Source: Bradyrhizobium sp. (lineage in GTDB: Bacteria > Pseudomonadota > Alphaproteobacteria > Rhizobiales > Xanthobacteraceae). Taken from it: a DNA stretch of 48,472 nucleotides. The position numbers and the translations under genes are program-made. Where the stretch lies: contig NZ_JADGRI010000005.1 of NCBI RefSeq assembly GCF_017881085.1, positions 1-48,472 on the forward strand, written 5' to 3'. This document shows positions 23,576 to 32,402 of the stretch, in pieces; within the stretch, counting starts at the first letter, position 1; each line of letters opens with the position of its first letter. A model generated the notes under the pieces. That model had not been told where the DNA came from. It ran no database searches and saw only the letters and a program-made list of their open reading frames with translations.

Positions 23576-24271
23576 TTATGCGTCCAGCGTGCGTAGCTTC
23601 TGGCGGTTGCGGAGCACGATCTGGCGTGCGCCGGAAAATCCGAGAATTCCCTGGCTGTGGAGCTGCGAAAGCGCCCTCGAGACGGTTTCCAGCGTAAGGC
23701 CGAGATAATCGCCGATATCCCTGCGGCACATCGGCAGCGCCATCATGCCCGCAACGGCGAGCCGGCCGTCCATTTCCAGGAGGAAGGTGGCCACCCGCTC
23801 CATCGCCGTCTTGCGTCCGAGCAGCAGCATATGGTCTTCCGCATGCCGGAGATCGCCGGCGGTCATGGCCCAGAGCTTGCGCGCGACCTGGACATCGACG
23901 CCTGCTGCCTGTTCGAGGCTGCGGCGCTTCACCAGCCGCACGGTGGTATCGATGATGGCTTCCGCGGCCAGCCGGTGAATGGTTCCGGATTCGAGGCCGA
24001 AAACATCGCCCGGAAGGTGGAATGCGCCGATCTGGCGGCGTCCGTCGGACAGCAGCTTGTAGCTGCGAACCGCGCCTGTAATTACCTGGTAAACGTATTC
24101 CGCAGGTTCATCCTCGCCGTAGATTTCCTCGTCCTTCTTGTAGGAAAATTCCGTTGCGACGAGACCCGCATGACCGGTAACCGCGCCGAACTGGTCGGGG
24201 GCAGGAGCGGGGAAGGCGACGGGGCTGACCTTGTGGCCGATAACCGAGGTGCTGAGGGATTGGGTAAGCAT
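23576..24271 (-). CDS. fixK: Crp/Fnr family regulator, FixK (FixK2-type)
   Basis: cNMP-binding domain followed by RRDIGDYLGLTLETVSRALSQLHSQGIL HTH; lacks the N-terminal Fnr cysteine cluster; adjacent to fixJL. Confidence 0.92.
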   Translation of the reverse strand: MLTQSLSTSVIGHKVSPVAFPAPAPDQFGAVTGHAGLVATEFSYKKDEEIYGEDEPAEYVYQVITGAVRSYKLLSDGRRQIGAFHLPGDVFGLESGTIHRLAAEAIIDTTVRLVKRRSLEQAAGVDVQVARKLWAMTAGDLRHAEDHMLLLGRKTAMERVATFLLEMDGRLAVAGMMALPMCRRDIGDYLGLTLETVSRALSQLHSQGILGFSGARQIVLRNRQKLRTLDA

Positions 24272-24354
24272 TTTGCCATCTCCTGTGCGGCGGATGGCGA
24301 ATGGGTACCGGGGATTTTCGGGGCTGGAAATTTCGCGAGATATCTTAAGGGGAA

Positions 24355-24362
24355 CTACTTAC
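24355..24362 (-). promoter_or_regulatory. Candidate FixJ-binding motif GTAAGTAG upstream of fixK
   Basis: Minus-strand GTAAGTAG matches the FixJ consensus GTAmGTAg; about 85-90 bp upstream of the fixK start. Confidence 0.6.
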
Positions 24363-24392: not shown

Positions 24393-24824
24393 TCAGCCGC
24401 CGGCCGGTCCGCTCTCCTGGATGGCCCCCCGGATACGGGTGACAAGGCTCTCATCCAGCAGCGGTTTCATCAGGACGTGCCGGACGCCCGCCGCTTCAGC
24501 CCTTGCCGAGATGTTTTCGTCGGGGTAGCCGGTAATGAGGATGACCGGCGCGGCGATGTCGCGGTTTCGCAGGCGGCCGGCCAGATCGATGCCATTCATG
24601 TCGGGCATCTTGTAGTCGATCACGAAACAGTCGACGCCGGTCGAATCCACGGCGTTCAGCAGCGAGGCGCCGTTCCTGAAAGTGCGGACGTTGAAGCCGT
24701 CCGTTTCAAGAAGGAATCGAAGCGAACCAAGCACATCCGCGTCGTCGTCGACCACGTAAACTGTTGGTTTGGCGAGTGGCGACATCGCGAAAGCCCGCGC
24801 ATCTTTCGAGCTGATCTGGATCAT
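24393..24824 (-). CDS. Receiver-only (single-domain) response regulator
   Basis: TVYVVDDDADVLGSLRFLLETDGF...DCFVIDYKMPDMNGIDL...ILITGYPDE...VRHVLMKPLLDE; no output domain. Alternative start ATG at 24785 (MSPLAK). Confidence 0.88.
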   Translation of the reverse strand: MIQISSKDARAFAMSPLAKPTVYVVDDDADVLGSLRFLLETDGFNVRTFRNGASLLNAVDSTGVDCFVIDYKMPDMNGIDLAGRLRNRDIAAPVILITGYPDENISARAEAAGVRHVLMKPLLDESLVTRIRGAIQESGPAGG

Positions 24825-24861
24825 AATTTATCCAGACTACCACCCGATAGGCGATGGGGGC

Positions 24862-24875
24862 TTGATTTAGCTCAA
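24862..24875 (-). promoter_or_regulatory. Candidate FixK/Fnr box TTGATTTAGCTCAA before the receiver-only gene
   Basis: TTGAT-TTAG-CTCAA (as read on + strand) versus consensus TTGAT-N4-ATCAA; overlaps the fixJ stop codon (24872-24874). Confidence 0.65.
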
Positions 24876-25489
24876 TCCTTCAGCAGGCCGGCGCGCATCG
24901 CCAGCCGCACCAGTTCCGAGAGGCTGTTGGCCTGCATCTTTGTCATCACGTTCGCCCGGTAAACTTCGATGGTGCGGGGGCTGATGTCGTAGTCGCGGGC
25001 GATCAGCTTGTTGGAAAGCCCGGCGATCAGTCCGTCCATGACCTGGCGCTCGCGAGGGCTGAGCGATGCTACCCGCGCCGCGATATCCTGGGTGATCGCC
25101 TCGCTCTTGGCGGCCGGCTCCGCCTGATGGATGGCCGTCTCGATCATGGCGATCAGGCGGTCATCCTCGAACGGTTTCTCGAGAAAATCGACCGCCCCCA
25201 GTTTCATGGCTTCGACGGCAAGCGGCACGTCGCCATGCCCGGTCATGATCACAATCGGGAACGTGCTGTGGCCCGCCTTCATGCGCTTCAGAAGCTCGAT
25301 TCCGTCGAGGCCGGGCATGCGCACATCGGAAACGACGCAGCCGAATTCAAGGCGCGGGAGGGCATCGAGAAATTTCAAGGCGGTCTCGAACAGCGTGACC
25401 TTGTAGTTGGCGGAATCGAGCAGGAAGTTCAATGAATCCCGCATCGCCTCGTCGTCGTCGATGACATAGACCTTTCCCCTGTCCGGCAT
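24872..25489 (-). CDS. fixJ: Two-component response regulator FixJ
   Basis: VYVIDDDEAMRDSLNFLLDSANYKV receiver plus LSPRERQVMDGLIAGLSNKLIARDYDISPRTIEVYRANVMTKM LuxR HTH. Confidence 0.95.
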   Translation of the reverse strand: MPDRGKVYVIDDDEAMRDSLNFLLDSANYKVTLFETALKFLDALPRLEFGCVVSDVRMPGLDGIELLKRMKAGHSTFPIVIMTGHGDVPLAVEAMKLGAVDFLEKPFEDDRLIAMIETAIHQAEPAAKSEAITQDIAARVASLSPRERQVMDGLIAGLSNKLIARDYDISPRTIEVYRANVMTKMQANSLSELVRLAMRAGLLKD

Positions 25490-25492
25490 ATC

Positions 25493-26995
25493 TCAACTCT
25501 CGTTCGATGCTGCTGGCAGGGTGAAGCGAAACGTCGCGCCTCCCGCAGCATTGCTTTCGGCCCACATCCGGCCGCCATGGGCTTCGATGATCGACCGGCT
25601 GATGGAAAGTCCTACCCCCATCCCGGTTTCCTTTGTCGTAAAGAAGGTTTGAAACAGGTTGGCTTTGACGTCGTCGTGGAATCCGGACCCGGTATCCGAC
25701 ACTTCGATCTCGATCATGTCGTCCTCGACCTTGGCGTTCGACGCAATAAGCTCCCGTCGAGGCGACTGCGCCATCGCCTCCAGCGCATTGCGAAACAGAT
25801 TGACCAGCACCTGCTGGATCTGGACCCGATCCGCCAGTACCAGGTCGAACTCCGGATTGAGGTGGAAGCGCAGTTGGATGTTCTGCTCACGGGCGCCCGC
25901 CAGACCGAGCGCGCCTGCTTCCTCGATCAGTTTCGAGAGGCTTTCGACGCGTTTTTCGGATTCGCCCCGAGAAACGAAATCGCGGAGACGGCGGATGATC
26001 TGGCCGGCGCGAAGCGCCTGTTCGGCGGCGCGGTCCATGGCGTTTTCAATTTTCGCCGCATTGGGATCGGTGCTGCCCGCCAGCAGCCTGCGCGAGCCCT
26101 TCATGTAGTTGCTGATGGCGGCGAGCGGCTGGTTGAGTTCGTGCGCCAGCGCGGATGCCATCTCGCCCATCGCGCTCAGGCGCGAGATGTGGACCAGTTC
26201 GGATTGCAATTCCTGCAGCCTTGCCTGGGTTTGCTGGTGTTCGGTCAGATCGCGCACGAACCCGGTGAAATAGGGCTCTCCGCCCGATTGCATCTCGCCG
26301 ATCGTGAGGTGCATCGGGAAGGTGGTGCCGTCCCGGCGCTTGCCGGTCACGATCCGCCCGATGCCGATGATGTGCCGTTCGCCAGTGGATCGGTAGCGCG
26401 CCAGATAATCGTCGTGGCGCGCCTGGTCCGGCATCGGCATCATCTCGCTGACGTTTTTGCCGATCGCCTCCCGCTCGGTATAGCCGAACAGCCGCTCGGC
26501 CGCGGTGCTGAAGAACTGGATGATGCCGTAACCGTTGATCACGATCATCGCATCCGGCACGGTGTCGAGGATCGACCGCAAATGGCTCTCGCGCGTTCTC
26601 AGCGCCTCTTCGAGCTGCTTTTCCTCGTCGATATCGAGCGCGATCCCGCTGACATGGCATGGAACCCCGGCCTCGTCTTTGACCAGGCCCCCGCGGGCGC
26701 GAATCCACTGCCCGGACTTGTGCCTGCCACGCAGCCTGAAAGAAACGTCGAGACTGCCGCCGGTCTCGGCAACCTTCGTGATCGCCCGGTCGATGCGCTC
26801 GCGCTCTCCGGATTCCAGCAGGGAAAGAAACAGCTCGTAGGATATGGGCTGTTCGCGGTCGACGCCGAACAGGTTTCGCGTGGCATCGGACCATTCCAGC
26901 TCTCGCGTGGAAAGGTCGAGGTCCCAGGTTCCGACGCCGAATCCCTCCATTTGGAGTTGAAAGTGCCCTTTTGCCGATCCGGTTATGCCAGCCAC
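25493..26995 (-). CDS. fixL: Oxygen-sensing histidine kinase FixL
   Basis: Two PAS domains; heme-PAS segment QARHDDYLARYRSTGERHIIGIGRIVTGKRRDGTTFPMHLTIGEM; HELNQPLAAI H-box; ATPase domain. Confidence 0.95.
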   Translation of the reverse strand: MAGITGSAKGHFQLQMEGFGVGTWDLDLSTRELEWSDATRNLFGVDREQPISYELFLSLLESGERERIDRAITKVAETGGSLDVSFRLRGRHKSGQWIRARGGLVKDEAGVPCHVSGIALDIDEEKQLEEALRTRESHLRSILDTVPDAMIVINGYGIIQFFSTAAERLFGYTEREAIGKNVSEMMPMPDQARHDDYLARYRSTGERHIIGIGRIVTGKRRDGTTFPMHLTIGEMQSGGEPYFTGFVRDLTEHQQTQARLQELQSELVHISRLSAMGEMASALAHELNQPLAAISNYMKGSRRLLAGSTDPNAAKIENAMDRAAEQALRAGQIIRRLRDFVSRGESEKRVESLSKLIEEAGALGLAGAREQNIQLRFHLNPEFDLVLADRVQIQQVLVNLFRNALEAMAQSPRRELIASNAKVEDDMIEIEVSDTGSGFHDDVKANLFQTFFTTKETGMGVGLSISRSIIEAHGGRMWAESNAAGGATFRFTLPAASNES

Positions 26996-27241: not shown

Positions 27242-27255
27242 TTGATCTATCTCAT
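27242..27255 (+). promoter_or_regulatory. Degenerate FixK box TTGATCTATCTCAT upstream of the USP-CBS pair
   Basis: 8 of 10 conserved positions of TTGAT-N4-ATCAA; centre about 60 bp before ATG, similar to fixN and fixG spacing. Confidence 0.4.
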
Positions 27256-28733: not shown

Positions 28734-28747
28734 TTGATCTCGATCAA
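28734..28747 (+). promoter_or_regulatory. FixK box TTGATCTCGATCAA upstream of fixN
   Basis: Exact match to TTGAT-N4-ATCAA; centre 62.5 bp before the fixN ATG. Confidence 0.88.
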
Positions 28748-32388: not shown

Positions 32389-32402
32389 TTGAGCTGGATC
32401 AA
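32389..32402 (+). promoter_or_regulatory. FixK box TTGAGCTGGATCAA upstream of fixG
   Basis: TTGAG-CTGG-ATCAA, 9/10 consensus; centre 63.5 bp before the fixG ATG. Confidence 0.8.

Follow-up and report, generated by a model that had tools for sequence, protein, structure and literature searches.

What does a protein consisting of little more than a receiver domain do between fixJ and fixK in Bradyrhizobium, and from which codon is it translated? Both questions are raised by the 48,472-nucleotide stretch of Bradyrhizobium sp. DNA analyzed here (the window), in which the gene order fixL-fixJ-receiver-fixK is that of fixL-fixJ-fixT-fixK in Sinorhizobium meliloti, with the cbb3 oxidase and fixG-H-I genes next on the plus strand (Table 1). 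The gene itself is already known: the same gene lies between fixJ and fixK as Bll2758 in B. diazoefficiens and as RPA4249 in Rhodopseudomonas palustris, and the label FixT is already in print for the latter, which has been described as FixT-homologous (PMC13327599). The question gains weight from the auto-repression of FixK2 in the soybean symbiont B. diazoefficiens, for which a 2022 paper still gave the mechanism as unidentified (PMC9104804). The job of fixK auto-repression is done in S. meliloti by FixT; in Bradyrhizobium, a FixK-controlled, fixLJ-linked receiver that the FixT model places first presents itself as the natural candidate. We consider a FixT-like role likely, and put at roughly 60% the probability that the receiver is the Bradyrhizobium counterpart of FixT: driven by FixK, docking on FixL, lowering FixJ phosphorylation and closing a negative loop on fixK.

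Table 1. Genes and regulatory elements of the fixLJ-receiver-fixK region and other FixK boxes in the window
Feature	Position	Strand	Details
fixK	23576-24271	-	Crp/Fnr family regulator
Predicted FixJ site upstream of fixK	24346-24361	-	TAAGTAGTTCCCCTTA; matches the S. meliloti fixK site TAAGTAATTTCCCTTA at 14 of 16 positions
Receiver-only protein, FixT-like	24393-24824	-	Bll2758/RPA4249 orthologue; 143 aa; favored start ATG 24824
Alternative internal start ATG	24783-24785	-	130 aa; other genera start at this position; weak Shine-Dalgarno
Predicted TSS	24827-24828	-	24827 with box center at -41.5, 24828 with -40.5; FixK2 geometry measured at nosR
Extended -10 element	24834-24842	-	TGGTAGTCT; TGGTA at 24842-24838
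FixK box at the end of fixJ	24862-24875	-	plus-strand letters TTGATTTAGCTCAA, minus-strand reading TTGAGCTAAATCAA; exact TTGAN6TCAA
fixJ	24872-25489	-	response regulator (receiver + GerE); NCBIfam FixJ 342.9 bits, above cut-off
fixL	25493-26995	-	PAS-PAS-HisKA-HATPase kinase; start coordinate approximate
fixN FixK box	28734-28747	+	ATG 69 nt from the box; ordinary leader
fixG (ccoG) FixK box	32389-32402	+	ATG 70 nt from the box; ordinary leader

Conservation of the FixK box at the end of fixJ

The initial annotation had placed a FixK box over the fixJ stop codon, 38-51 bp upstream of the receiver ATG at 24824, and this claim is borne out by the exact match and by its conservation. As fixJ ends at 24872, its TGA stop (24874-24872) falls inside the TTGA half of the box, and the same TGA of TTGA terminates fixJ in 47 of 63 Bradyrhizobium-genus loci. 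Among distinct orthologous loci collected across the genus and the family, an exact FixK box is present at the fixJ 3' end in all 63 from the genus (63/63) and in 138 of 139 from the whole family; because of this conservation, the box upstream of the receiver can be taken as real and a chance match is ruled out. The window holds four exact matches to TTGAN6TCAA where 0.40 would be expected, a count of four was reached in none of 100 shuffles (0/100), and three of the four sites adjoin fix genes (the receiver at 24862, fixN at 28734 and fixG at 32389); genome-wide there are 173 exact matches, compared with 10 for a reversed-pattern control. A near-FixK site (TTGATCTATCTCAT, 27242-27255) is also found 67 nt upstream of a universal-stress-protein-like ORF (27309).

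That FixK controls the receiver gene, as had been proposed from the box, is strongly supported by the box conservation together with published observations on the orthologues, since expression of RPA4249 is FixK-dependent in R. palustris (PMC2908626) and Bll2758 is induced under microoxia (PMC6515984). The proposed placement of the gene under the FixLJ-FixK cascade draws on the conserved box and on the FixJ-type site before fixK (reference S. meliloti site from PMC4999443), with expression data coming from the orthologues only.

Relation of the receiver to FixT and the proposed loop

The 143-residue receiver matches Pfam Response_reg alone (residues 22-132, E = 1.4e-24), and its predicted structure model, for which the alignment rows comprised only window and genome-contig sequences, is a single (beta-alpha)5 receiver domain with no output domain. 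The residues D26, D27, D70, T98 and K120 are all present and are invariant or nearly so among the orthologues, in agreement with the earlier description of a protein that keeps the acidic pocket, the phospho-Asp and the Lys but has no output domain. The absence of an output domain in this Bll2758 orthologue also contrasts with the naming of Bll2758 as an OmpR-family regulator in a comparative study (PMC4999443). Like the window receiver, S. meliloti FixT is of the receiver type, and its gene lies between fixJ and fixK behind a FixK-type site (TTGATCTCGCGCAA), but the protein is only ~20% identical to the window receiver, gives no Pfam receiver match and has lost the acidic pair and the Thr (the Sinorhizobium pocket reads A-A-D, with most pocket residues gone). 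As the pocket is intact in the window receiver and degenerate in Sinorhizobium FixT, the mechanism may differ between the two.

A further comparison is with the NCBIfam FixT model (NF051882), which represents Caulobacter crescentus FixT. The window receiver is the best match in its own genome (35.2 bits, against 16.5 for the runner-up), and the fixJ-linked orthologue ranks best in eight of nine further genomes; the score lies well below the curated cut-off of 150, but so does that of S. meliloti FixT itself (28.8 bits). The window receiver and C. crescentus FixT share a common Cys, equivalent to C64, whereas the four-Cys Fe-S motif of the Caulobacter protein is absent from the window receiver, in which C66 is the single Cys; this motif is absent outside Caulobacter (PMC7078487). 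The conserved Cys66 was considered as a FixT signature and rejected, as most FixJ proteins carry the same Cys. The order fixL-fixJ-receiver-fixK is seen again in Methylobacterium and other Alphaproteobacteria, single receivers linked to fixLJ also occur in Methylobacterium, Phenylobacterium, Parvibaculum and other Alphaproteobacteria, and in the tree the fixLJ-linked receivers split from FixJ and from other receivers with a branch support of 96/97. Two further routes failed: a search with a Sinorhizobium FixT profile did not pick up the window receiver, so could not serve as proof of orthology, and phylogenetic placement of the degenerate Sinorhizobium FixT proteins gave no resolution (end branch 7.7, AU p 0.44-0.51). 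The FixT-like feedback raised in the initial annotation stands in part, backed by synteny with S. meliloti and the top rank in the FixT model search, while the profile miss and the failed tree placement count against it. No functional test of Bll2758 or RPA4249, and no biochemical or genetic data on the window receiver, were found, although published tests of bll2758 may exist. A 2016 chapter is cited for a fixK2 reporter plasmid from which bll2758 was deleted.

In the proposed circuit, low oxygen would activate FixL and FixJ, and FixJ~P would switch on fixK. FixK would in turn bind its site over the fixJ stop codon, a transcript would start at the receiver AUG or, in the window, ~3 nt before it, and the receiver would dock on FixL, decrease FixJ phosphorylation and so close the negative loop on fixK. 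The FixJ-type site before fixK points to an arrow from FixL-FixJ to fixK and the FixK box to one from FixK to the receiver, whereas the arrow from the receiver to FixL would follow by analogy. A clue to the partner may lie in the docking helix, in which S34, F37 and L38 are identical to those of FixJ from the same genome (suggestive only); the helix positions taken to contact the kinase are those of kinase-receiver complexes in general. Phe at the F37 position is co-present or co-absent in the receiver and FixJ in 10 of 11 lineages, as judged by eye and post hoc, and this covariation, a pattern spotted after seeing the data, is suggestive of FixL as a shared partner.

Inhibition of FixL by the receiver could operate through binding, the mode of the known FixTs, or through acceptance of phosphate. 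A phosphate sink, in which the receiver competes with FixJ and drains phosphate from FixL~P while the kinase itself is not inhibited, would make sense of the FixJ-like docking helix and of a full phosphorylation pocket that is conserved in the orthologues, unlike that of Sinorhizobium FixT. We nevertheless regard it as improbable, because the S. meliloti and C. crescentus FixTs both inhibit FixL autophosphorylation, and for neither was phosphorylation of FixT or competition with FixJ seen (PMC7078487). Slightly less probable still is an independent single-domain regulator, of which FixK sets only the amount while another kinase phosphorylates it and its target is a different one. Single-domain receivers often have unrelated targets, and the lack of a match to the Sinorhizobium FixT profile would fit such a protein; the linkage to fixLJ and fixK across many genera, the rank in the FixT model search and the FixJ-like docking residues all argue against it. 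We retain the FixT-like inhibitor of FixL as the preferred reading.

Promoter geometry and the start codon

A class-II transcription start near 24827, as suggested previously, is reasonable, with the extended -10 element TGGTAGTCT just before it. The FixK2-dependent TSS1 of B. diazoefficiens nosR was mapped 40.5 bp from the box axis (PMC5582078), a distance of 47 nt when counted from the box start. Of the 138 box-bearing loci of the family, 109 have an ATG at a distance of 45-53 nt from the start of the box, usually 47-48; the count for precisely 47 or 48 nt is 73 of 93 in Bradyrhizobium and 24 of 45 in other genera, with most other offsets represented by a handful. By the measured FixK2 geometry, an AUG at 47-48 nt would coincide with the predicted +1. 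In the window the distance is 51 nt and the TGGTA is shifted by one, giving a predicted leader of 3 nt (AUU); predicted leaders are 3-4 nt here versus 0-1 nt in most relatives. At the other FixK promoters in the window the spacing is an ordinary 67-70 nt, and the S. meliloti FixT start lies ~90 nt from its own FixK site behind an ordinary leader, unlike that of the window receiver.

These features resemble those of leaderless mRNAs. Differential RNA-seq in B. japonicum identified 320 TSSs 0-10 nt before start codons, and a TGnTA motif was reported for the leaderless mRNAs (PMC4842269); the likeness lies in an AUG that coincides with or adjoins the predicted 5' end and in the TGnTA extended -10 element, which is found at matching spacing in 47 of 63 Bradyrhizobium loci and in few loci of other genera. 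At the window locus the element is at the right spacing and there is no Shine-Dalgarno sequence before AUG 24824, as the predicted 3-nt leader leaves no room for one. The 5'-uAUG mRNAs of Escherichia coli (PMC4965119) are similar in having an ORF with a 5'-terminal AUG upstream of a gene. The loci studied here differ from both known classes in that their TSSs are predicted and in that, in 15 of them, the stop of a mini-ORF overlaps the receiver start. The receiver transcript is thus predicted to begin with AUG in most relatives, and translation from 24824 would be of the leaderless type.

We favor ATG 24824 as the translation start with reasonable confidence. The competing proposal, made when the promoter was first noticed, was that the real start is internal, at ATG 24785 after a leader of ~42 nt, giving a protein of 130 residues; it is independent of the role of the protein. 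This internal start keeps some standing because other genera of the family start at the matching position, and some Bradyrhizobium loci can start only there. Residues 1-16 are moreover predicted to be disordered (pLDDT < 50), so the N-terminal extension may be dispensable and the choice of start may have more bearing on expression level than on function. However, the anti-Shine-Dalgarno energy at ATG 24785 (-2.6 kcal/mol) is weaker than those of fixJ (-6.5), fixK (-8.4) and even the shuffled mean (-3.9), whereas the AUG at or next to +1 is a conserved element and is the sole in-frame ATG before the domain in 39 of 63 Bradyrhizobium loci. We therefore consider the internal start unlikely, though less so than either alternative to the FixT-like role. 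Shine-Dalgarno strength did not discriminate between the start groups (p = 0.25), and codon-position bias in the N-terminal extension is only weak. Exactly over ATG 24824 lies a second FixK-like dyad with two mismatches (ATGATCCAGATCAG, 24811-24824, minus strand), at which position many relatives carry ATGATYGARRTCAG; it is probably codon-driven (MIE[IV]S) but could instead act at the start site as a weak operator for repression.

Fused and separate reading frames at the predicted 5' end

The near-5' ATG has two fates among the 109 loci. In 86, including the window, its reading frame continues without a stop into the receiver; in these the distance from ATG to receiver domain varies between 51 and 75 nt, while that from box to AUG is steady at 46-51. 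In the other 23 it opens a separate ORF, the stop of which overlaps the receiver start codon in 15 (as TGATG or ATGA, most often after 13 codons); a further seven have 9-10 codons and end shortly before the receiver start, and one is long and bears no such relation to it. In the window the stretch before the internal ATG runs to exactly 13 codons, a length that is also the most frequent among the mini-ORFs. On the receiver tree, which is short and noisy, the fused state changes at least nine times. These comparisons, with predicted TSSs and species that are not independent, are read most simply as a leaderless mini-ORF to which the receiver would be coupled, the two being fused in most Bradyrhizobium, the window included. 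With a mini-ORF that ends on or just before the receiver start, synthesis of the receiver would be tied to translation of the leaderless type. Among the seven short mini-ORFs, those of one genus (g52; L183-L188), predicted to be leaderless and exemplified by MTVFAALIGA, have TGAGG or TAGGA at their end, and the stop may double as part of the receiver's Shine-Dalgarno sequence.

The leaderless start, or the receiver-coupled leaderless mini-ORF, would constitute a new element. A conserved 5'-terminal AUG with a fused or coupled mini-ORF appears not to be described in the literature consulted, and that on Bll2758 and RPA4249 does not describe a leaderless or mini-ORF arrangement. The conserved AUG at the predicted +1 makes for a specific prediction on how the feedback protein is translated. 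More tentatively, and with odds clearly below even, the whole may be combined: a family-wide FixK promoter would put an AUG at the RNA 5' end, and this AUG would, depending on the lineage, either extend the receiver or open a leaderless mini-ORF, mostly of 9-17 codons, that couples receiver synthesis, such that the strength of feedback could depend on both ribosome state and oxygen, and the receiver would be the agent of FixK2 auto-repression in Bradyrhizobium.

Two individual loci deserve mention. One relative (L150, G021:C1:6093500-6097500) has two fixLJ-receiver-fixK clusters, the second of which also carries a FixK box, its start 49 nt from an ATG. The receiver gene on plasmid pBs162S2a of Bradyrhizobium septentrionale (L119, 3366-3860) is annotated with a start upstream of its own FixK box (TTGACCTGCCTCAA), and the annotated N-terminus is for this reason probably wrong.
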